Source: Candidatus Poribacteria bacterium (lineage in GTDB: Bacteria; Poribacteria; WGA-4E; WGA-3G). From it: a stretch of 59,882 bases of DNA. Both the position numbers and the translations under genes were made by a program. This document shows, piece after piece, positions 26,683-57,166 of the stretch. The stretch covers positions 81,718-141,599 of the forward strand of contig VXMD01000006.1 of assembly GCA_009841255.1 (NCBI GenBank). The letters run 5' to 3'. The stretch's first letter is position 1; each line of letters begins with the position of its first letter. Below the pieces are notes generated by a model. It saw nothing but the letters and a program-made list of their open reading frames with translations, was not told the origin of the DNA and searched no databases.

Positions 26683-26859
26683 CGGATTCTCCTTACCTCG
26701 TTTTTAAAGTCAATTATAAGATGTTAGTTTAACGTGAATCCAAAAGAGAATCAATAAAGAAATGTGTTCGTAGAGTTTTCTTAGGAAGCGGAAACAATTA
26801 CACCTTAACAGCGCAATTTGGTAACGAAAGATGAGAATATTTCGTTTTGTTTTATAGGA

Positions 26860-27043
26860 TAACCCAAGTTGCTACTAAAAAGTTTAGGGCAGTTCAAAAA
26901 CGGTTTGCAGACAATTTCCCTACCCGGGGTCCCCACCCGTTACTCGGAAGGGGGGACGGGGTAATATGTCTATAGAAAACGGAATATTTATCTCCACCGC
27001 ACCCCGTAGGGGTGCTATGTCAAATAGATGGCAACTTGCGTTA
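26860..27043 (+). mobile_element. 184-bp MITE-like element, copy 1
   Basis: Left end TAACCCAAGTTGCTAC (26860-26875) and right end ATGGCAACTTGCGTTA (27028-27043) are imperfect terminal inverted repeats (13 of 16 match). GGA directly flanks both ends (26857-26859, 27044-27046), a 3-bp target duplication. The interior is rich in CCCC/GGGG and has no gene. A copy of identical length is at 34453-34636. The element lies just upstream of the amidase gene, within a 388-nt gene-free gap. Confidence 0.8.
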
Positions 27044-27070
27044 GGATATAAAAAAAATCGGAGAAGAATA

Positions 27071-28510
27071 ATGAAAATATGGTGTTCTTGCTTGCTGATC
27101 CTTTCTTTCCCAGTCCTATCTGGATGTGTAAGCATGTCCGGTTACAGAGCCGCTTCACTGCGCCATCAGGCGTATGTGAGCGGCGAAAAACACGCGACTG
27201 CCGCAGAGTGGCGTGCGCTTATTTCAGAGTTTCAGGAAGTTATTGATGCAAATCCGGCAGGACCCACAGCGGATGATGCACAATACGCCATCGCTTCCAG
27301 TTGGGCTTGGAGCATCAAAGCCGGGGACGCTGAAGCACCGCAGCAGGCAATTGTAGCCTTCCAAAAACTGATTCGCAACTACCCTAATTCGCAGTATGTC
27401 CCACAAGCACACTATTGGTTGGGACGTTGCTATGCCTATGTCGGAGACGACTACCGAGCCATCACACAATACCAGATTGTGGAGAGTCGCTATGCGGATT
27501 CTGAAGTATTCCATCCCGCCCAATTAGAATTGGCACGCGTGTATGTGAAACAAGGTTACATCACACGCGCCAAGACACTCTATGATAATCTTATCGCATC
27601 TTCAATAGATCAAGAAATTACTGTTGCTGCTACTCAGGAACTACAACATCTCCAAATACAACGAAAACCAACAGTATCGTCGCCTGAAAGGGTAGCTCAG
27701 GCACAGACGCAACCCAAAAAACTTCAACCGCCTATTCCCGAAACGAAAAAATCTTTGGTTCCTGAATCACTGACACGTGAATTCGGGTTAACCGCGAAAA
27801 CGATTGTCATTGACCCGGGTCATGGCGGCAAAGACCCAGGCGCATTGGGGAAGCGGACTTTACGAGAGAAAGACATTGTCCTCAGCATCTCTGAAAAACT
27901 TCGTGAGGTGCTAACGCGAAAAGGCTACACCGTCTTGATGACACGTGATACCAACCGTTTCATACCGCTCAAGGAACGGACTGCCTTCGCAACGCACCAC
28001 AAAGCAGATCTCTTTCTGAGCATTCATGCCAACGGCAGTAAAAACACTAAAGCAAAAGGTATTGAAACTTATTATCTGAGTGTCACCAGTACGGACAAAG
28101 CCGCAGCAGATATTGCAGCGCGAGAAAACGCAGACTCCGGCTACAGTATCCAAGAACTGGAGGTATTACTGAAAGGGATTATACAGGAGAGTAAGAGCGA
28201 AGATAGCAAGCGATTGGCAAGACATGTACAACAAGCATTGGTACAAGCGACAGGTGCAGTCGACCGTGGGGTCAAACACGCACGGTTTGTCGTTTTGATT
28301 GGAACAAACGTACCTGCTGTCCTCATTGAGACCGGATTTATATCGAATCTGACGGAAGGGCGAAAACTCACAACACCGGCGTATCAACAGAAAATCGCCA
28401 CTGCTATCGCACAAGGCATCGAGAAGTTTTTGGGAAAAACCGAGGAAGCACCTCTGGTCAAAGGTGGAAACCCAAAATTTGCCACCACACGTGTTGAGAG
28501 GGACAGGTAA
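27071..28510 (+). CDS. Lipoprotein N-acetylmuramoyl-L-alanine amidase with TPR region
   Basis: The 479-residue protein begins with a lipoprotein signal whose lipobox LSGC puts the lipidated Cys at residue 19. Residues 40-200 form TPR-like units (YPNSQYVPQAHYWLGRCYAY). A Pro/Gln-rich linker leads to an Amidase_3 domain (about 240-460). Zn ligands are visible as His in IDPGHGGKDPG, Glu in LREKDIV and His in SIHANGS, with the catalytic Glu in LIETGFISN. It cleaves the amide between MurNAc and L-Ala in peptidoglycan, in the periplasm on a membrane anchor. The frame is open into the upstream mobile element, but ATG 27071 has GGAGAAGAATA before it and gives the signal peptide. The stop codon overlaps the next start. 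Confidence 0.92.
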   Translation: MKIWCSCLLILSFPVLSGCVSMSGYRAASLRHQAYVSGEKHATAAEWRALISEFQEVIDANPAGPTADDAQYAIASSWAWSIKAGDAEAPQQAIVAFQKLIRNYPNSQYVPQAHYWLGRCYAYVGDDYRAITQYQIVESRYADSEVFHPAQLELARVYVKQGYITRAKTLYDNLIASSIDQEITVAATQELQHLQIQRKPTVSSPERVAQAQTQPKKLQPPIPETKKSLVPESLTREFGLTAKTIVIDPGHGGKDPGALGKRTLREKDIVLSISEKLREVLTRKGYTVLMTRDTNRFIPLKERTAFATHHKADLFLSIHANGSKNTKAKGIETYYLSVTSTDKAAADIAARENADSGYSIQELEVLLKGIIQESKSEDSKRLARHVQQALVQATGAVDRGVKHARFVVLIGTNVPAVLIETGFISNLTEGRKLTTPAYQQKIATAIAQGIEKFLGKTEEAPLVKGGNPKFATTRVERDR

Positions 28511-30513
28511 TGTTTTCAAGCCAAACCGTAAATAAGCGGCTCAATATCACGATAATTGTGCTTATTTGTGTCCTTCTCTTGCATATCGGTGAACGCAACC
28601 TTGCCGTCTCACAACAAGCACAGATTGCGATCCTCTTACCGACAGCCGCGTCGGGTGTATCGAAAGGAGACGTTCAATATGCGCGTTCCGTCGCGAAGCG
28701 ATTCAGTCGAATGCTCGGCATCATCGGATTCACTGCAGATATCTTTGAAGAATCATCACTCTCTAAGGCTCGACTCGAATCCTGTAAATTAATTGTCCTT
28801 CCATTGAACGCCACCTTATCAACACAGACGACCCGTCTTTTGAAAAATTTCGTTGCCGATGGCGGTAAACTGTTCGTAACCTATAACTTAGCGGATACAG
28901 TGGCACCGCTGCTGGGTTTGCGTCAAACGGGTTGGTTAAAAGAGGGATCACCTGGACAGTTTACTTCAATTCAGCTGAGAGCACCCGAAATCCCTGATAT
29001 ACCGACATCTATTAGACAGGCGTCGTGGAATATTACAGTCGCCGCCCCAACAACACCACAGACAAAAATTATCGGGTATTGGCACAATATGGCAGGAGAA
29101 TCGACAGGCTTGCCTGCCCTTTTTATGGGTGAAGCGGGGGTCTTCTTCAGTCACATCTTCCTCCCAGACGACATTCTCACCAAGACACGATTCCTCGCCG
29201 CACTCTTAGGACATCTCGTCCCAGAATTTCGGCAACTCCTTGCCAAACGAGCTATAAAGACCATCACCACTGTGGGACATGCCGGCGGGCTTGAGGCTTT
29301 AGCCTCCTTTGTTCAACAAAGTGGCATACCAGAAGCGGTAGACGCTTTGGAAACAGGAAAGCGTTTGATGGTTAAGGCGCGCGCTGCGTATAACACCAAG
29401 ACATACAATACGGCGATAACGACCGCCCGGGCAAGCCGAGAGGCGTTTTCAAAAGCCTATTTCTTGTCGCATCTTAGCCTTGAAACCGAGGGGCGCGCCG
29501 TATGGAATCATTCCGGACTTGGTGCCTATCCCGGTGATTGGGATCGGTCTGCCAAAGAATTGGCGGCGGCAGGCGTGAACATGATTCTCCCAAACATGGC
29601 GTGGGCAGGGGTGGCGCATTATTCCAGTAAGGTCTTACCGCAGAGCGACACCTTTACGCAATATGGAGATCAGTTAGCACAGTGCGTCACGGCGGCACAC
29701 AAGCACGGTTTAGAGGTGCATGTGTGGAAGATTACATGGAATTTGGAAGGGGCACCAAAAGAATTCATTGAGAAAATGCGGGAAGATGGACGAACCCAAG
29801 TCTCGGCAACCGGAGATCCGCTCAATTGGCTCTGCCCATCACATCCGAAAAACGTCCAGTTGGAATTGGAGAGTATGCTGGAAATTGTAACGAATTACGA
29901 TGTAGATGGCATCCATCTGGATTATATCCGTTACCCGGGAAGTCATGCGTGTTACTGTGAGAAGTGCCGTGAAAGATTCATACTTACAACGCGACAGCAG
30001 ATTGACGAATGGCCCAAGGCAGTCCTGCCTGAAACAGGAGTTTATAGCGACACGTATATTCAGTGGCGGTCGCAACAAATCACGCGTTTGGTTCGCTTGC
30101 TACACAAACGTCTGCGAGAAGCGGATCCTAACATCAAACTCTCTGTAGCCGTCTTCGGTGGGTATCCAGCGTGTGTCGCTTCTATCGGACAGGACTGGAT
30201 CACGTGGGCAAAGGCGGGTTATGTTGATTTTGTATGTCCAATGAACTACACAGAGGACACAAACTATTTCACGGAATTATTAGCCAACCAACTCGCTTTG
30301 ATGCCGAAAGGGGTAGCCATTTATCCCGGTATTGGCGCAACCGCCACGAATTCGCTGTTGACACCCGATGCGGTGATTGCGCAGATTTATCTCTCGCGTT
30401 CCTTAGGGGCTTCAGGGTGGACGATTTTTGACTATGCCCTTGATATCTCTGAGACTGTACTACCTGCACTCGGAGCAGGTGTAGGAAAATCTAAAGTACA
30501 GCCGGCACATTGA
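28510..30513 (+). CDS. Secreted glycoside-hydrolase-like protein (GHL10 type)
   Basis: The 667-residue protein has an N-terminal signal or anchor segment (ITIIVLICVLLLHIG). Next comes a Rossmann-like region (about 35-260) resembling the ThuA/GATase-like modules often placed before such domains. The (beta/alpha)8 domain has LHVWKITWNL-like text and DVDGIHLDYIRYPGSHACYC, the hallmark of glycosyl hydrolase-like family 10 (DUF187/YngK type). A CxxC pair (CYCEKC) follows. Such proteins are thought to act on cell-wall or extracellular glycans; the bond is unknown. Its ATG shares a base with the amidase stop (TAATG), so the two are translationally coupled and may work together on the cell wall. Confidence 0.83.
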   Translation: MFSSQTVNKRLNITIIVLICVLLLHIGERNLAVSQQAQIAILLPTAASGVSKGDVQYARSVAKRFSRMLGIIGFTADIFEESSLSKARLESCKLIVLPLNATLSTQTTRLLKNFVADGGKLFVTYNLADTVAPLLGLRQTGWLKEGSPGQFTSIQLRAPEIPDIPTSIRQASWNITVAAPTTPQTKIIGYWHNMAGESTGLPALFMGEAGVFFSHIFLPDDILTKTRFLAALLGHLVPEFRQLLAKRAIKTITTVGHAGGLEALASFVQQSGIPEAVDALETGKRLMVKARAAYNTKTYNTAITTARASREAFSKAYFLSHLSLETEGRAVWNHSGLGAYPGDWDRSAKELAAAGVNMILPNMAWAGVAHYSSKVLPQSDTFTQYGDQLAQCVTAAHKHGLEVHVWKITWNLEGAPKEFIEKMREDGRTQVSATGDPLNWLCPSHPKNVQLELESMLEIVTNYDVDGIHLDYIRYPGSHACYCEKCRERFILTTRQQIDEWPKAVLPETGVYSDTYIQWRSQQITRLVRLLHKRLREADPNIKLSVAVFGGYPACVASIGQDWITWAKAGYVDFVCPMNYTEDTNYFTELLANQLALMPKGVAIYPGIGATATNSLLTPDAVIAQIYLSRSLGASGWTIFDYALDISETVLPALGAGVGKSKVQPAH

Positions 30514-30627
30514 CAAGCATATTCCCTTTCATTTTTCTATCAGGATCCCTAAAACACCTTCGTGATTGCCTCTCCACACTTGCGGTATGGAAGTCCAATT
30601 TTTTCTCCATCTTACCGCAGATTCTGC

Positions 30628-30656
30628 TTGCATACTGTTGATAAATCGTGTAAACT
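30628..30656 (+). promoter_or_regulatory. Candidate promoter of the first sulfatase gene
   Basis: TTGCAT (30628-30633) is separated by 17 nt from TAAACT (30651-30656). The 5' leader would be about 120 nt. The rest of the 269-nt gap shows nothing else recognisable. Confidence 0.35.
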
Positions 30657-30782
30657 AAATTGAAAGCAACATCTTTCGTAATAAGCGTGCACGTGGGTAA
30701 AAGGACAGACTTAAAAATGTTCTAAATACACGGTGTAGAAGTTTACTCCCCTATAGAAGATTAAAGGAGATTTTTTGAATTA

Positions 30783-32240
30783 ATGGCTCAAAAACCGAAT
30801 ATCCTATTTTTGATGAGCGATGAACATAGTCCACATGCTATAGGATGTGAAGGCAATGACATTGTCCAAACACCGAATCTTGACCAGCTCGCAACATCTG
30901 GAACCTATTTCGAGAGTGCCTACTGCCAAGTCCCGCTCTGCACCCCCTCCCGGATGTGTATGCTAACTGGAAAGTATGCCCATCGGTGTTCAGCATGGAA
31001 TAACGGGTCTGTCCTGTTTCCCGAGCATCTCACGATGCCTGCACATTTTGCACAGCACGGCTATGCGACTGCCCTCGTTGGGAAGATGCACTTCGGTGGC
31101 AAAGAGCAAAACAACGGTTTCCAGTCTCGACCGTACGGTGACCTGCGTGGGTATGCCGGACACCAAACAGATCCGCTGACCCCATCTGGTCCGCGACAAC
31201 GAACGCGGCTCGCTGGAATCACCGAAATCCCGACCAGCCTACTGCAAGAACGGGTTATCAATACGGAAACACTTGAGTACTTAAGATCACAACCCGCAGA
31301 ACAGCCGTGGTTCCTGCTGGCAAGTTACAGTCGCCCACATTTCCCGCTTACAGCCCCAAAACGCCTTTTCGATAAGTATTGGCCCGATAATGTTGATATG
31401 CCCAACGTTCCAGAGGGACACTTGGAACAGACACACCGCTTCGCGAAAGGTTTACGGGACAATTTTAAGACAAATGAAATCCCGTTGGAAGAGGCTCGAA
31501 AAGCACGAGCGGCGTACTATGCCTGTTGCGAATTCCTGGATGAGACCATTGGAGATCTACTCACACTTTTGGAGCGCGACGGCTTATTGGATAACACCAT
31601 CATCGTCTACACGACAGATCACGGTGAAATGGCAGGAGAACACGGACAGTGGTGGAAATCCAGTTACTATGAAGCCGCAGCACGAGTGCCTTTAATCATA
31701 TCGGATAGACATCTGCCGCAGTCACACGGAGAACGCGTAACAGCACCTGTCGAATTGAACGATCTCTTTCCGACCCTATGCACCAGAGCCGATATTCCTA
31801 TCCCTGAAGATTTAGATGGGGCAGACCTGACAAATCTTATGACAGGAAACGCTGAAGGTTGGCGTAACACTGCAATCACCGAATACTGGTCGAACCAGAC
31901 AACGGGACCCATGCGTATGCTCCGAACGCCGCGCTATAAATATGTCGCCTTTCCTGAAGATGAATCCATTCTTTTCGATTTAGAAACAGACCCCAATGAA
32001 TTTGAGAATCTTGTAGGTCAGGCAGCGTCGCAAGAACTGGAGGCATCCCTACATGAACAACTCATGAACGGATTCTCATGGGAGTCTGTCAGAGAACAGA
32101 TGACTGTGGATAGAGAGCGAAGTCGAGATTTCAAGGAACCGTGGGGGAAAGGCACTCCGAATCAGTATACACTCCCTGACGGGCGTGTTGTCGATGCGGA
32201 AACCTGTCTCTATCGTCCCTCAATGAGAGACGAAGCCTGA
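30783..32240 (+). CDS. Sulfatase (formylglycine-dependent), 1 of 2
   Basis: The 485-residue type I sulfatase has the modification signature CTPSR at Cys53-Arg57, followed by MCMLTG; this Cys is converted to formylglycine. Metal-site residues are seen in LFLMSDEHSPH and in YTTDHGEMAGEHGQWWK. No signal peptide is present, so it is cytoplasmic unless exported another way. It hydrolyses sulfate esters, probably from carbohydrates. A ribosome binding site (AAAGGAG) lies about 12 nt upstream. The next gene is DUF6785-like paralogue 2. A formylglycine-generating enzyme or anaerobic maturase is not in the window. Confidence 0.92.
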   Translation: MAQKPNILFLMSDEHSPHAIGCEGNDIVQTPNLDQLATSGTYFESAYCQVPLCTPSRMCMLTGKYAHRCSAWNNGSVLFPEHLTMPAHFAQHGYATALVGKMHFGGKEQNNGFQSRPYGDLRGYAGHQTDPLTPSGPRQRTRLAGITEIPTSLLQERVINTETLEYLRSQPAEQPWFLLASYSRPHFPLTAPKRLFDKYWPDNVDMPNVPEGHLEQTHRFAKGLRDNFKTNEIPLEEARKARAAYYACCEFLDETIGDLLTLLERDGLLDNTIIVYTTDHGEMAGEHGQWWKSSYYEAAARVPLIISDRHLPQSHGERVTAPVELNDLFPTLCTRADIPIPEDLDGADLTNLMTGNAEGWRNTAITEYWSNQTTGPMRMLRTPRYKYVAFPEDESILFDLETDPNEFENLVGQAASQELEASLHEQLMNGFSWESVREQMTVDRERSRDFKEPWGKGTPNQYTLPDGRVVDAETCLYRPSMRDEA

Positions 32241-32261
32241 ATAGTTGTCGGCTGTCAGCCG

Positions 32262-32375
32262 TCGGTTAAAGAGGTTTTTGGTAACAATTTATGCGGTATT
32301 GGAATATTCCAAGTAGCGGTTGATTGTTACAAAGCACCTCTTAACTGAAAACCGATAACTGAAAACCAATAACTA
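32262..32375 (+). repeat. Dispersed imperfect inverted repeat element
   Basis: Left arm 32269-32288 (AAGAGGTTTTTGGTAACAAT) faces right arm 32323-32342 (ATTGTTACAAAGCACCTCTT). The palindrome GGAATATTCC (32301-32310) sits in the loop, and flanking AACTGAAAACCGATAACTG units follow. Part of the arm recurs at 5866-5916. It lies between the sulfatase and DUF6785-like paralogue 2 genes. Confidence 0.6.
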
Positions 32376-32384
32376 TTAAAACCG

Positions 32385-34418
32385 ATGTTGCTAAACACGC
32401 CTCAAAAACCCGATGTTAATAACCGGAAAATCGGAGCGGAACCCCAATCGTTAAAAAACCAAAAAATCCGGTTCCCTGCTATTCTCGTAGGATTGCTTTT
32501 GATAGGGGCGATGTGTGCAATCACACCCTACAACAACTATTTCCTACAAAATACCAAGATCGCAGGCAATCATCTCCCTGTTGGTTCAATCTTCGGGCTT
32601 CTCATTCTGGTATTTCTTGTCAATGTACCATTGCGTAAGTTGATGCGGAACGGGCGTTTTGCCTTCTCCGCGCTTGAATTAACCGTGGTCTGGATGATGT
32701 TAATCGTCGCAGTCGGCATCCCGTCAATGGGGTTGTTGCAGTTTCTGCTTCCATCTCTTGTTGCACTGCAGTACTTCGCAACGATGGAGAATGATTGGTC
32801 AGAAACACTCCATCCACACGTCCCAGAATGGCTCGTCGTCACGGAACCGCGCGCCGTAACAGACTTCTATGAAGGGATTTCTCCGGGTGAAAGCGTCCCG
32901 TGGATGCTCTGGCTGAAACCCTTACTCGTCTGGGGTCTTTTCGTTCTGGTCTTCTATTTTACAACGCTCTGCCTTTCCACAATCCTCCGAAAGCAATGGG
33001 TAGAACGCGAAAGGTTCTCCTTCCCTTTAATTCAGATTCCGATACAGCTCGCCGCTGAACCGGCGCGCGGCACACTCCTCAACACCTTTTTCAAAAACAG
33101 ACTCCTTTGGGCAGGAATGATACTACCGGTGGTATTGCACCTTATCAACGGGTTGCATGCCCATTTTCCGAGGGTACCAGAGATTCCGCTGATTTACAAT
33201 ATTTACACCGTCTTCACCGAAAAACCGTGGCATACACTCGGATGGTGGCCTGCCATGCGGTTCGTCATCTATTTTTCGGTCATTGGGATAGCCTCTTTAC
33301 TCACGCTTGAGGTTTCGTTTAGTCTCTGGTTCTTCTATCTCTTTTTCAAACTCCAATACATCATCATGAATGCGATCGGACTCAGCATCGGTCCATGGAT
33401 TAGTTGTAGCCGTCAAGTGATGGGCGGTTATCTCGTCTTTGTTCCCGCGGTTTTCTGGATCGGGCGTGAACACATCATCACAATTTTTAGGAAAACGTTC
33501 GGTCTCGGACACACAAGGACGAGCGATTCCGCCATAGGAGAACAACCAATAGACGATTCAAACGAACCGGTCTCGTATCGTGTGGCACTGCTTGGATTTC
33601 TCTTAGGCTTTATCGTTCTTGTGGTGTTTTTGGTCATTACCGGTGTAACAACGTGGGTTGCGGTCGTGACGCTGCTCTCTATCTTTATCACATCGATTGT
33701 CTTGTCTTGGATGGTGGTTAACGGAGGGCTGTTGCTTGTCCAGGCGCCTTTCTTCCCTTCGGAATACATTGATATTACGCTCGGTTCCAACGCATTAGGA
33801 CATAAGAGCCTCGCGATTCTGAGTTTCCAAAGGACCTTCCTACGCGATTGGGGCGAGTTTATGATGCCAAACTTTCTACACAGTTTCAAAGCGGCAGATG
33901 AAGTAAAACTCGCCCGTCGTCGTATCATGCCGATTTTATGGATCTCAATTGTCGTCGCACTCCTTGTTTCTGTCTATGCTTCGTTGACGCTAATTTACGA
34001 CAAAGGTGCGCTGTTTTTACAGAGTTGGTCTTTCGTAGTCGCGCCGCGTAACTATTTCCAACGGATGAGCAGCCTCATTCAATTCCCTATTGAGACGAAA
34101 TGGGACGAAGTGTACAGTATGATTGCTGGCGCCGGGTTTACAGGTTTTATGCTCTGGATGCGACAGAACTTTGTCTGGTGGTCCCTCCATCCAATCGGTT
34201 ATCTGCTCGGCGCAACTTACCCACCTTTTCACCTCTGGTCGTCGATTCTGATCGGGTGGTTCATTAAGTATATGGCACTCAAGTTTGGCGGTGCCTCGAC
34301 GTATCGGAAGATTCGACCCGTCGCCTTCGGCTTGATTTTCGGCGAGTATGTGATGGTAGGGCTATGGATGATAGTTGGGTTCTTTACAGGGATCGGTTAT
34401 TTTGCGTTACCGTCGTGA
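32385..34418 (+). CDS. DUF6785/DUF6784-like polytopic membrane protein, paralogue 2
   Basis: The 677-residue protein is the most divergent of three paralogues but keeps FATMENDW, RKQWVERERFSFPLIQIP, a SFSLWFFYLFF helix and FVWWSLHPIGYLLGA. It is strongly hydrophobic with about a dozen or more membrane segments. The function is unproven; a carrier role is inferred from topology and from its place between a sulfatase and a sugar-acid dehydratase gene. The first 27 codons are polar and include DNA similar to the nuoL leader repeat (GGAGCGGAACCCCAATCG at 32433-32450), so the native start is uncertain. No ribosome binding site is visible before 32385. Confidence 0.72.
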   Translation: MLLNTPQKPDVNNRKIGAEPQSLKNQKIRFPAILVGLLLIGAMCAITPYNNYFLQNTKIAGNHLPVGSIFGLLILVFLVNVPLRKLMRNGRFAFSALELTVVWMMLIVAVGIPSMGLLQFLLPSLVALQYFATMENDWSETLHPHVPEWLVVTEPRAVTDFYEGISPGESVPWMLWLKPLLVWGLFVLVFYFTTLCLSTILRKQWVERERFSFPLIQIPIQLAAEPARGTLLNTFFKNRLLWAGMILPVVLHLINGLHAHFPRVPEIPLIYNIYTVFTEKPWHTLGWWPAMRFVIYFSVIGIASLLTLEVSFSLWFFYLFFKLQYIIMNAIGLSIGPWISCSRQVMGGYLVFVPAVFWIGREHIITIFRKTFGLGHTRTSDSAIGEQPIDDSNEPVSYRVALLGFLLGFIVLVVFLVITGVTTWVAVVTLLSIFITSIVLSWMVVNGGLLLVQAPFFPSEYIDITLGSNALGHKSLAILSFQRTFLRDWGEFMMPNFLHSFKAADEVKLARRRIMPILWISIVVALLVSVYASLTLIYDKGALFLQSWSFVVAPRNYFQRMSSLIQFPIETKWDEVYSMIAGAGFTGFMLWMRQNFVWWSLHPIGYLLGATYPPFHLWSSILIGWFIKYMALKFGGASTYRKIRPVAFGLIFGEYVMVGLWMIVGFFTGIGYFALPS

Positions 34419-34452
34419 TCTGTGCGTGCGTATATAGACCGAAACTATAAAT

Positions 34453-34636
34453 TAACCCAAGTTGCTACCTAACAAACTATAGACGTTTGAATGAATTTTC
34501 AAGTCCTTTCCTTACCCCATAGGGGTAATATATCTATAGAAAAGCGATTTTCAATTCCCCGCACCCGGGGTCCCCACCCGTTACTGGGAAGGGGGGACGG
34601 GGTGCTATGTGAATAGGAGAATGGCAACTTGCGTTA
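34453..34636 (+). mobile_element. 184-bp MITE-like element, copy 2
   Basis: Left end TAACCCAAGTTGCTAC (34453-34468) and right end ATGGCAACTTGCGTTA (34621-34636) are identical to copy 1. AAT flanks both sides (34450-34452, 34637-34639), again a 3-bp target duplication. Internal sequence is similar to copy 1 in its G/C-rich right part. No gene is inside. Confidence 0.82.
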
Positions 34637-34666
34637 AATTAGATGAATCTTTTAAATGAGGTATAT

Positions 34667-36858: not shown

Positions 36859-37008
36859 ATTATAAATCCTCCTATAACCATAATATCCTGAAAATGTATA
36901 ATCCATATTATCAAATTAAATTCTGAAAATATTAGATTAAGGCTTCGGGTATACTCTGAATATTAAGGTTTCAAGCGAAGGCTTGGCTATGTACACATAT
37001 TAAAGTTG

Positions 37009-37836
37009 CTACTGTGATTCTGGATATTTCTCCTTCATCCGTTTGACAGCATCAAGTTTCGTCTGTTGCCAATCCGTCCAGTCTTTTTTCCCTTCATAGC
37101 GGACGACATCGTGGATCGTTGCGCGGGGTTGGTAGGTAATGTAATTCCCTGTGTGCCATGCAAGGTTCCGATACACCATGAAATCTCCCGGTCCCAGATG
37201 CACTTGAACCGCCCCCGGAAACTGCCGACAGTGTTCTAAGCAGAAACGTTCAGCTTCAGCGTTAGATCGCCCTTCAGCAGGTTTCCGCAACTTCGGATCG
37301 TTTGTTGATTGTTCTTCACCGGGCAGATCCCACTGGCGTAGGTGACTACCCGGGACGAACCACGTACAGGAGTCCGCATAAATCGCGCAATTAACCTGGT
37401 TGAAGTGGCGCAGGTCGTACCACACTTCTGCCAGTTTCGCTTTGACAATCTCGTCACGTGCCTCGGGCGGAACCTCTACAACGCCATCTCGGTGCCAACC
37501 GATATGCCATGGATGTTCAAGCGGCTCAACAAGGAGTCCCATGATGTCAACGTGTCCATGTGTATAGTCAGGACCCAGTAGTTTTTCGATAGCGTCTCGA
37601 AGTTCCGGCAACTCCGTGTAGTCATAGAAAGGCTGCAGATCCAATTCGTCGCCGTAATTGGATAGCGGTTGGATCCGTTGCGTTTGCGGTCCATTGCATT
37701 TATGTGCCAGATCGCGGGCTTTCTCTGCCTCTTGACGCAGATCGGTGAGCAACGACGGTGGCACAATCCCTCGAAAGATAAGATACCCTTCTGAGAGGTA
37801 TTCATTGACCATAGAATCTTGAAATTGAAATGCCAT
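37009..37836 (-). CDS. Phytanoyl-CoA dioxygenase family protein (2 of 3)
   Basis: The 275-residue Fe(II)/2-oxoglutarate oxygenase has His115-x-Asp117 in IGWHRDGVV and distal His228 in LAWHTGNY, with WFVPGSHLRQWD as the core strand. It is larger than the 25978 paralogue and has an inserted segment (about 170-200). The ATG at 37836 is preceded by GGAAAGGACA. It follows the VOC gene by 18 nt and is probably co-transcribed. The stop codon TAG lies in AAGTTGCTAC, which resembles one end of the MITE-like element. Confidence 0.88.
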   Translation of the reverse strand: MAFQFQDSMVNEYLSEGYLIFRGIVPPSLLTDLRQEAEKARDLAHKCNGPQTQRIQPLSNYGDELDLQPFYDYTELPELRDAIEKLLGPDYTHGHVDIMGLLVEPLEHPWHIGWHRDGVVEVPPEARDEIVKAKLAEVWYDLRHFNQVNCAIYADSCTWFVPGSHLRQWDLPGEEQSTNDPKLRKPAEGRSNAEAERFCLEHCRQFPGAVQVHLGPGDFMVYRNLAWHTGNYITYQPRATIHDVVRYEGKKDWTDWQQTKLDAVKRMKEKYPESQ

Positions 37837-54726: not shown

Positions 54727-55944
54727 TTATTTATTGCCTTCTTGAAGAGATTTTGCTGCAAATATTGTCAAGCATAATTCTTCGTTAAAGAGTTCATAGA
54801 CAGGTATTTTCCCACTCAACTGCTCACTTTCGTTCAGAATGATGCCAACACCTTCTCCACGTCCTTCTAAAAAATGTCTCCGCTTTACTTGTTTTTCTAC
54901 ATCGTCATCTAAAGTAATTTCCGAAAGTAAACGTGCCAAGAGTTCATTACGCGTGGCTTGATTATAGGGTAATTTATCAATTGTTAAAGAATTTGCTAAT
55001 GCCCCCGGGGAATATAACTCAAGCCGGTCAGCAAACATGAACAGGCGAATTTTTGAGCCGTGTTTTGAATAGTCTCTATGAACAACCGCGTTAACGATTG
55101 CCTCAAATACGGCACGCATGCTGTATTGGGGCTGGTCTATCCTTCCAACTTCCTTACGCGCGGATACCTCGTTGTGTTTTTGAACAAATTTAAAGGCATC
55201 TATAATCTGTTGGTCAAGAGGACCTCTAAAATCCTTTGCATCAATCTGGTAGTTGGCATCTTTTACTTTCCCGCTATAATAAACGGCTTGGATAAAACTG
55301 TTATATAGGCAATCATCAGGTGTATCGTGACACATCAAAACCCCAGCGACAGAAGCCCGAATCTCCCTGCCTTCCTGAACGAGTAAAGTTCTTTTTAGGA
55401 GTAGGTCCTCTATCACATTTTCAGTGGCATCTTCTGTGATGAATCGTTGATAGAGCGGTTCTCTTAGTGTTCTTCTATATGTGTTTGGAACGGGTAGTGT
55501 GTTGAAATGAGTTTTGCGTGGTTGTGAACGGGTTTGAAACAGGCGTGTTAACTGTTGTGTTGACATCTCTTTTTTTGTTTTTTCTCGACGCGTGTAATAC
55601 CCGTTATGAGTCTTGTGAACAAAAAAACTTCGCGGGATCTCTATTTTTAGCAGGTTTTTACCATCAAGCCGTAATTTTTCCGTGAAGATCGGAACGGTAG
55701 GTTCAATGCTATCATTGCATATTTCAATAACCCTTTTTTCTACATTATCCAATTTCTGCAGTTCAATTCCAATGATTTCTTTGTTGTCGTCAACGCCAAT
55801 GAGTATCATTCCCCCTTGGGCATTTGCAAAAGCAGCGATCTCGTCTGCTATGTTGTCTCTGTGAGGGACATCTCTTTTGAATTCCATCGTTGAGTCTTCA
55901 CCAAGAAGAATTTTTTCAATAAGTTCGGTTTGACTGTGAAACAT
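54727..55944 (-). CDS. AlbA_2 (Schlafen-like) domain protein with GHKL ATPase-like domain
   Basis: The 405-residue protein has an N-terminal AlbA_2 domain (about 15-130) with EDSTMEFKRDV and AFANAQGGMILIGVDDNK, and a C-terminal HATPase_c_4-like half with IVNAVVHRDYSKHGSKIRLFMF and LELYSPGALANSL. Such proteins are often annotated as ATP-dependent transcriptional regulators. Several act in phage-defence or mobile islands. GGAGG overlaps the stop of the upstream relic and lies 7 nt before the ATG at 55944, so the two were one operon. It ends 15 nt before purL. Confidence 0.82.
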   Translation of the reverse strand: MFHSQTELIEKILLGEDSTMEFKRDVPHRDNIADEIAAFANAQGGMILIGVDDNKEIIGIELQKLDNVEKRVIEICNDSIEPTVPIFTEKLRLDGKNLLKIEIPRSFFVHKTHNGYYTRREKTKKEMSTQQLTRLFQTRSQPRKTHFNTLPVPNTYRRTLREPLYQRFITEDATENVIEDLLLKRTLLVQEGREIRASVAGVLMCHDTPDDCLYNSFIQAVYYSGKVKDANYQIDAKDFRGPLDQQIIDAFKFVQKHNEVSARKEVGRIDQPQYSMRAVFEAIVNAVVHRDYSKHGSKIRLFMFADRLELYSPGALANSLTIDKLPYNQATRNELLARLLSEITLDDDVEKQVKRRHFLEGRGEGVGIILNESEQLSGKIPVYELFNEELCLTIFAAKSLQEGNK

Positions 55945-55946
55945 AA

Positions 55947-56183
55947 CTAACCTCCAAGATGAATACGTTTATAACGCTGTTCAAATGCCCTTTCTCCACC
56001 TTCAAGAATGTTGCATATAGATTCTCTAACATTTCTTTGTTGGATACTTGCGGGATGTTGCACTTCAGTTTGACCATCCACTGCCTCAAGTGGCAAAACC
56101 ATTTCAGCATCACCATTAACCACGATATTGGCATTGTGTGTCACCACGATAACCTGCCGTTTGCTTTTATTTCACGCAACCCG
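55947..56183 (-). pseudogene. C-terminal relic of an AAA/TrlF-like ATPase
   Basis: The frame ending at 55947 gives VIVVTHNANIVVNGDAEMVL and ends LEGGERAFEQRYKRIHLGG, typical of the C-terminus of large SMC/TrlF-like ATPases. Upstream, LREIKANGR is in the next frame, so a small deletion near 56150 (GGCAGG region) shifted the frame. The 5' part is missing and replaced at 56184 by a 62-bp repeat element. An ORF of 66 codons survives but is unlikely to be functional. Confidence 0.7.
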
Positions 56184-56245
56184 TTTGTAGCATAACCTGT
56201 TAGATTGTGCATCTCAGAACGCAAACTGAAAGTTTACGCTACAAA
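56184..56245. mobile_element. 62-bp element with terminal inverted repeats
   Basis: TTTGTAGCATAA (56184-56195) and TTACGCTACAAA (56234-56245) are inverted repeats (11 of 12). It sits at the break point of the ATPase relic. No target duplication is clear because the other side is not recognisable. Confidence 0.55.
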
Positions 56246-56306
56246 ACACCTACCCATAATGACCCATTTCAATGAAAAACGGTATCTGCATGCCGAAATC
56301 TTGTAA

Positions 56307-56322
56307 GTAGCAACTTGGGTTA
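56307..56322 (-). repeat. Isolated terminal repeat of the MITE-like element
   Basis: GTAGCAACTTGGGTTA is the exact reverse complement of the left end of the 184-bp elements. The other end is not found within about 200 bp, so this is a truncated copy. Its TTA gives the TAA stop of the downstream small gene (56320-56322). Confidence 0.7.
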
Positions 56323-56800: not shown

Positions 56801-57166
56801 TTATCCGCCTTTCGCTAAATCTTGAGCGATTTTCAATCGGCGTTTTATCCGATCGATTTCTCTTTTTGGGGTCCCAATACCTCTTTTAGATTTCTTTTCA
56901 AAAGCGTGTAGGACGTAAATTGTATCACCGATTTTGGTAGTGTACACGGCTCGATAGGTATTCCTTGCATAATCGCTGCGAACCTGCATGACCCCCGGAA
57001 ACCCTTTTAAAGGTTTAGCTTTTGGATGCTTATCCCCAACCTGTGCAACATAAAGAGCATACCCTATTTCATCTTGAACTTCTGGTGGAAATTCTTTCAA
57101 ATCCTTATGTGATGAACGGATCCAAATTATAGGTTTTAGCTCATGTTCCTGTTTGAGCGCTCTCAT
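56801..57166 (-). CDS. RelE/HigB-family toxin (Gp49-like)
   Basis: The 121-residue protein has the Gp49-like fold of HigB/RelE mRNA interferases: FPPEVQDEIGYALYVAQ, KPLKGFPGVMQVRSDYARNTY with the conserved basic surface, RAVYTTKIGDTIYVLHAFEKKSKRG and a basic C-terminal helix. It would cleave mRNA on the ribosome when free of its antitoxin. It is the first gene of a three-gene operon. The ribosome binding site is weak. Confidence 0.85.
   Translation of the reverse strand: MRALKQEHELKPIIWIRSSHKDLKEFPPEVQDEIGYALYVAQVGDKHPKAKPLKGFPGVMQVRSDYARNTYRAVYTTKIGDTIYVLHAFEKKSKRGIGTPKREIDRIKRRLKIAQDLAKGG

Follow-up and report, generated by a model that had tools for sequence, protein, structure and literature searches.

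IS982-type ends and 7-bp target duplications on short hairpin-bearing elements of a Poribacteria genome

An atypical DDE catalytic motif is a criterion of the IS982 family of insertion sequences, and repeats of the repetitive extragenic palindrome (REP) and REPIN type are hairpins dispersed between genes, palindromes into which other elements can insert, linked to a REP-associated tyrosine transposase. Here, two short repeats, read as miniature inverted-repeat transposable elements (MITEs), are described from a stretch of 59,882 nt (the window; positions 81,718 to 141,599, forward strand, of contig VXMD01000006.1) in the assembly of a Candidatus Poribacteria bacterium (GCA_009841255.1). Like REP/REPIN repeats they are dispersed intergenic hairpins, but they differ in having transposon ends and target duplications at their borders. 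For the IS982 family, PMC7335449 gives AC ends and duplications of 2–10 bp; the poribacterial MITEs are alike in both respects, and their parents also in transposase family, whereas the MITEs lack a transposase gene and have about one sixth of the size. MITECca01 and MITECca02 of Cardinium, according to PMC9769881, derive from ISCca4 of the IS982 family, and share with the poribacterial MITEs that they are short and gene-less, have IS982-type ends, are mostly intergenic and far outnumber the intact parent. They are described there as about 240 bp long, from one strain and with a little parent sequence kept beside the end, while the poribacterial MITEs have cores of ~152 bp, occur in many genomes, carry a hairpin-cassette interior unrelated to the parent and have a TANNNTA target. 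REPs are also mentioned in the review PMC10969869. As IS982-derived MITEs are already known (MITECca01, PMC9769881), the poribacterial family adds to a known type and is mostly ordinary, with some unusual details. Our literature search, which did not extend to subscription papers or ISfinder, found no paper on MITEs of Poribacteria and none with the string CCCAAGTTGCTAC.

The two copies in the window are very probably MITEs that a DDE transposase of the IS982 family mobilises in trans. This is based on ends that are common to the MITEs and to intact IS982 elements, on 7-bp duplications, and on single-copy empty sites in relatives. An earlier note on the window had placed two 184-bp repeats with identical 16-mer ends at 26860–27043 and 34453–34636, and both were re-found in the sequence. 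The end 16-mer had 6 matches in the window at ≤ 3 mismatches (0.32 expected; none of 100 shuffles reached 6) and 86 genome-wide at ≤ 2 mismatches, where the reversed pattern, used as a control, had 7. The boundaries and the 3-bp duplications (GGA and AAT) of that note had to be revised: the inverted repeat is ACCCAAGTTGCTAC, the core is 180 bp long (AC...GT), the outermost TA of each supposed end is target DNA, and the duplication is 7 bp with the consensus TANNNTA. Copy 1 (class A, plus strand) has its core at 26862..27041 (nhmmer profile built from class-A elements, positions 1–153 of 153, E 5e-29), with the left terminal inverted repeat ACCCAAGTTGCTAC at 26862..26875 (plus strand; the same ends are on the IS982 parents), the right one at 27028..27041 (minus strand), and TAGGATA at both 26855..26861 and 27042..27048; its neighbours are a PhyH gene on one side and an N-acetylmuramoyl-alanine amidase gene on the other. 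Eight loci were compared for its empty orthologous site, and TAGGATA stands there once in L264 and L266, as TAGGACA in L262 and as TAGGATT in L265. Copy 2 (class A, plus strand), whose neighbours are a DUF6785 gene and a gene of the enolase superfamily, has its core at 34455..34634 (positions 1–153 of 153, E 1.5e-28), terminal inverted repeats at 34455..34468 (left, plus strand) and 34621..34634 (right, minus strand), and TAAATTA at 34448..34454 and 34635..34641; a near-identical single site, TAAATCA, is found in L250 (11 loci compared, most of them too diverged to align there). Both cores are short and without a transposase gene.

The earlier note had regarded the copies as non-autonomous elements served by a transposase from elsewhere in the genome, flanked by the same ends. 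Its statement that the window holds no transposase stands for PF13612 and NF033520, neither of which matched there, in a scan that does not cover every transposase family. A search beyond the window bore out its expectation in that IS982-family elements with the same ends are full-length in congeners and decayed in this genome. IS982-family models matched 47 of 60 related genomes (32 above the curated cut-off), and 20 IS982 regions were retrieved with their flanks and searched for end pairs. Four congener loci (L193, L196, L197, and L198, the last with TATATAA on both sides) hold complete elements of 921–923 bp in which the transposase frame is open and both ends are present, each with a duplication of 7 bp, the same length as in the MITEs. 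A fifth region (L200) has an open transposase frame and both matching ends, its right flank being cut by the contig end, and 12 of the 20 have no end pair of parental size; the other three are taken up below. The transposases of the five parents scored 166–186 bits against the NF033520 cut-off of 130, a profile match on which their IS982 identity rests, and the elements have the 5'-AC ends of the family (ACCCAAGTTGC). In this genome, L067 (contig C86) is a decayed IS982 element of 605 bp (609 bp by the ends of the earlier note); its ends are the same, TATTATA flanks it on either side, and an 83-aa piece matches NF033520 (E 9.2e-7). All 924 alignments between MITEs and parents were 12–22 bp long and located at the ends, without interior homology. 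The single PF13612 match in this genome (L068) is another transposase without these ends and was rejected as parent, and most of a first set of 30 IS982 loci (L069–L098) have other ends and were likewise set aside.

The same ends also occur outside Poribacteria. A search of the species-genome collection for the strict end pair, in which 140–170 bp were allowed and the sorting of elements was our own, gave 92 loci with 93 elements, 76 of them in Poribacteria (42 of class A, 25 of class B, and 9 other). The non-poribacterial ones come from one Anaerolineales bin (7), one Armatimonadetes bin (5), one Abditibacterium (3) and the cyanobacterium Oscillatoria princeps (2), some of which could be misplaced by binning errors; their interiors are unrelated palindromes (total length 144–167 bp), and their duplications including TA are of 6 bp in 8 of 17, 7 bp in 4, 8 bp in 2 and 12 bp in 1, with none in 2. 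At the loci seen, IS982 copies in the Armatimonadetes and Abditibacterium genomes with same-ended MITEs are without these ends, the Anaerolineales genome has one weak IS982 match without them, and Oscillatoria princeps has no IS982 match. In Abditibacterium (L273, G063:C15), MITE-like end pairs of the studied type stand on either side of an IS982 gene with other ends, at ~190 bp and ~80 bp from it. Of 35 matches to the palindromes of the other hosts, 1 lay outside the MITEs, in a small sample of loci. A tblastn search of plasmids had IS982 transposases of 41–56% identity among its best rows, four of which were opened: a Pseudanabaena element (L403; 907 bp) has these ends and the 6-bp TACGTA on both sides, an element of the Thermus thermophilus plasmid pHB5008b (L406; 891 bp) shares only TA at its flanks, a Rhodothermus IS982 has a near version of the ends and a 7-bp duplication, and Sphaerospermopsis has a weaker end pair. 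Both 14-bp ends of the Thermus element are identical to the poribacterial ones, though the transposases are only ~41% identical. The duplications of 7 bp in four parents and 6 bp in Pseudanabaena lie within the 2–10 bp of the family. By these comparisons, the end sequence is that of a wide IS982 subgroup, beyond which the MITEs of other phyla call for no special explanation.

In class-A elements, the interior between these ends consists of a hairpin, ATGTCTATAGAAA, a spacer, a second hairpin, and TATGT, with TATGT after each hairpin. In copy 1 the hairpins lie at 26921..26963 and 26999..27015, and in copy 2 at 34513..34527 and 34561..34605 (all plus strand). Compensated changes in the stems could point to spread by some hairpin-specific enzyme, as REP/REPIN-like or other hairpin elements in which the IS982 ends would play no part. 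Among 32 elements, 98.8% of the cells were paired and 17 cells had two-sided changes, against 4.4 in shuffles, although these were confined to 3 of 13 pairs and the sequences tested were also those from which the stems had been picked; because of both limits the covariation supports only hairpins that seem to be kept as hairpins and is not proof of an RNA. A search of seven loci with Rfam returned only two tRNAs near copy 1, and the cassette matches no described RNA family there. Folded as single-stranded DNA, the 150-nt stretches of copy 1 (z −1.65) and copy 2 (z −2.48) were not extreme; L012 reached −3.18 and an Armatimonadetes element −10.35. The hairpin alternative also draws on the spread of the cassette, as a 17-base part of it (≤ 1 mismatch) occurs 75 times in this genome against 0 for the reversed pattern, and 26 of the 75, all of which were recovered, have no IS982-type end (≤ 1 mismatch) within 330 bp. 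It is nevertheless improbable: the other 49 have such an end, which was found at none of 3000 random window positions, the duplications and empty sites track the IS982 ends, and class B combines the same ends with an unrelated interior. A count at ≤ 3 mismatches (62 of 75) was dropped in favour of the 1-mismatch count, since ~42% of random positions also pass at that setting.

Inverted pairs of the cassette without good IS982 ends are present at L342 (C13), L348 (C31), L357 (C26) and L360 (C80), and a TGTAAATATTTTGGCAG-like sequence is near the cassette in L348, L357, L358 and L360; such pairs are perhaps a second transposon family using the same cassette. We consider it possible, if rather doubtful, that the cassette is a mobile or selected unit of its own, captured by different ends (IS982-type and those of the TGTAAATATTTTGGCAG loci), and that its loops serve as docking sites for dispersed palindromes, with 4-nt loops being exchanged to give a nesting of palindrome in hairpin in MITE. 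Were this true, the same IS982-type ends around different palindromic interiors of similar length in several unrelated groups of bacteria would suggest that hairpin content and length are functionally required.

Such a loop replacement accounts for the equal length of the window copies, which the earlier note had treated as a signature of the family. By the ends used there, un-inserted relatives measure 156 bp, and the lengths vary: the cores of elements in this genome with a perfect 7-bp duplication range from 152 to 352 bp. Between copy 1 and the 156-bp L012 the only difference is in hairpin 1, where L012 has the 4-nt loop TGTA and copy 1 a 32-nt palindrome (26926–26957). Copy 2, aligned with the 156-bp L013 (91% identity), has the same palindrome bar one base (34567–34598) where hairpin 2 of L013 has the loop CATA. 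The shared 184 bp is a coincidence, because both copies are 156-bp elements with a 32-nt palindrome for a 4-nt loop, in different hairpins. The 19-base core of the palindrome, CCACCCGTTACTGGGAAGG (≤ 2 mismatches), has 20 copies here, while G005 has 41 and G018 has 81, with 0 matches for the reversed control and none in the more distant G044; many copies lie outside MITEs, dispersed on their own in Poribacteria. Among the 42 candidate pairs of this genome, the loop contents were of the 32-nt type in 5, the AATGCC...GGCATT type in 2, the TTGCTTCGCAGTGAGA type in 6 and a longer AT-rich insert in 2. At L001 (contig C1) and L044 (C12), a MITE hairpin holds the AT-rich insert, AATTTAATCGGGTAATT ... 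AATTACCC, which itself contains another palindrome, so that the nesting has three levels.

The element boundaries bear on the kind of transposase. Read as TAACCC...GGGTTA, the elements have a 3-bp duplication, and MITEs of another transposase family with duplications of that length (e.g., an IS5-type group) would fit both window copies, given that TANNNTA looks like NNN between element-borne TA; read as ACCC...GGGT, they have one of 7 bp. Since both parses fit any TANNNTA target, copies with other inner bases decide. In the 60 related genomes there were 103 elements with a strict end pair (summed over the table), and in 6 of them the right end is not followed by T; 4 of these have exact 7-bp repeats (CGTTTTA once and AATTATA three times), 1 has a 9-bp repeat, AAAGATATA, and 1 matches at 6 of 7 positions. 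All 7 bp are repeated even where the inner edge lacks TA, the full-length L198 has TATATAA on both sides, and full elements with these ends encode IS982 transposases, which makes the 3-bp reading highly improbable. When further copies were tabulated, consistent duplications were indeed obtained, their length being 7 bp and not the 3 bp first proposed: 13 of the 42 pairs in this genome have a perfect 7-bp duplication, all TANNNTA, and another 6 differ at a single position of the 7. Inner 3 bp common to both sides were seen in 50 of the 93 public-genome elements, and in 47 of these 50 the outer two bases on either side are TA as well. Misassembly is barely credible, and so is dispersal of intergenic sequence by segmental duplication or gene conversion, for although conversion could yield a copy 1 equal to L012 outside one loop, the flanks differ and carry matching 7-bp duplications, and orthologous sites are empty.

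Several points weigh against mobilisation by an IS982 transposase. Three IS982 elements with both ends, in this or a near form (L195, L201, and L204), have ≤ 2 bp in common at their flanks. In this genome, 23 of the 42 pairs match at ≤ 5 of 7 positions; some of them are chance pairs of the loose search and some decayed copies. The TA at the element edge was preset by the search pattern behind the 93 public-genome elements, and the TA preference therefore rests on the 103 elements of the 60 genomes and their 6 non-T copies. No intact parent was found in this genome, in an assembly of 87 contigs in which repeats may be lost, so that an unassembled or incoming copy would be required for mobility today. 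Finally, transposition itself was not observed, and mobilisation in trans is inferred from sequence. On balance, the family is well supported as IS982-derived. In the mechanism that we propose, the IS982 transposase would recognise the inverted repeat ACCCAAGTTGCTAC and insert the element at AT-rich TANNNTA sites, where a staggered cut would leave the 7-bp site duplicated on both sides. The interior is not a shrunken transposase gene; in class A it is the two-hairpin cassette, also present in this genome without IS982 ends, and smaller dispersed palindromes can take the place of its loops. What we infer is that these ends are cut by this transposase alone, the transposition chemistry, and recent activity.

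Two further ends had been reported in the window. The one described as lone (56307–56322) turned out to be the left end of a class-B MITE on the minus strand at 56183..56320 (nhmmer class-B profile, positions 1–140 of 153, E 3.8e-32), with an eroded right end from which the terminal repeat is lost. It is flanked by a Schlafen/AlbA-domain gene (54727–55944) and a Gp49-like gene (56801–57166) on the minus strand. The partial end near 37004, a 10-mer at 37003–37012, was rejected as an element, as neither MITE profile matches it at E up to 10.

With these results, a parent and the true target rule are identified for an abundant MITE family of a sponge-associated phylum, and the details of interest to a specialist are its 7-bp TANNNTA rule, the exchange of loops and the cassette that stands free of IS982 ends. 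The exchange seen between copy 1 and L012 is a clean natural case in which to ask how tiny palindromes move. For the IS982 family, one 14-bp end is unchanged across transposases that are only ~41–56% identical in different phyla, so that from host to host the same ends enclose hairpin interiors that are unrelated to each other.

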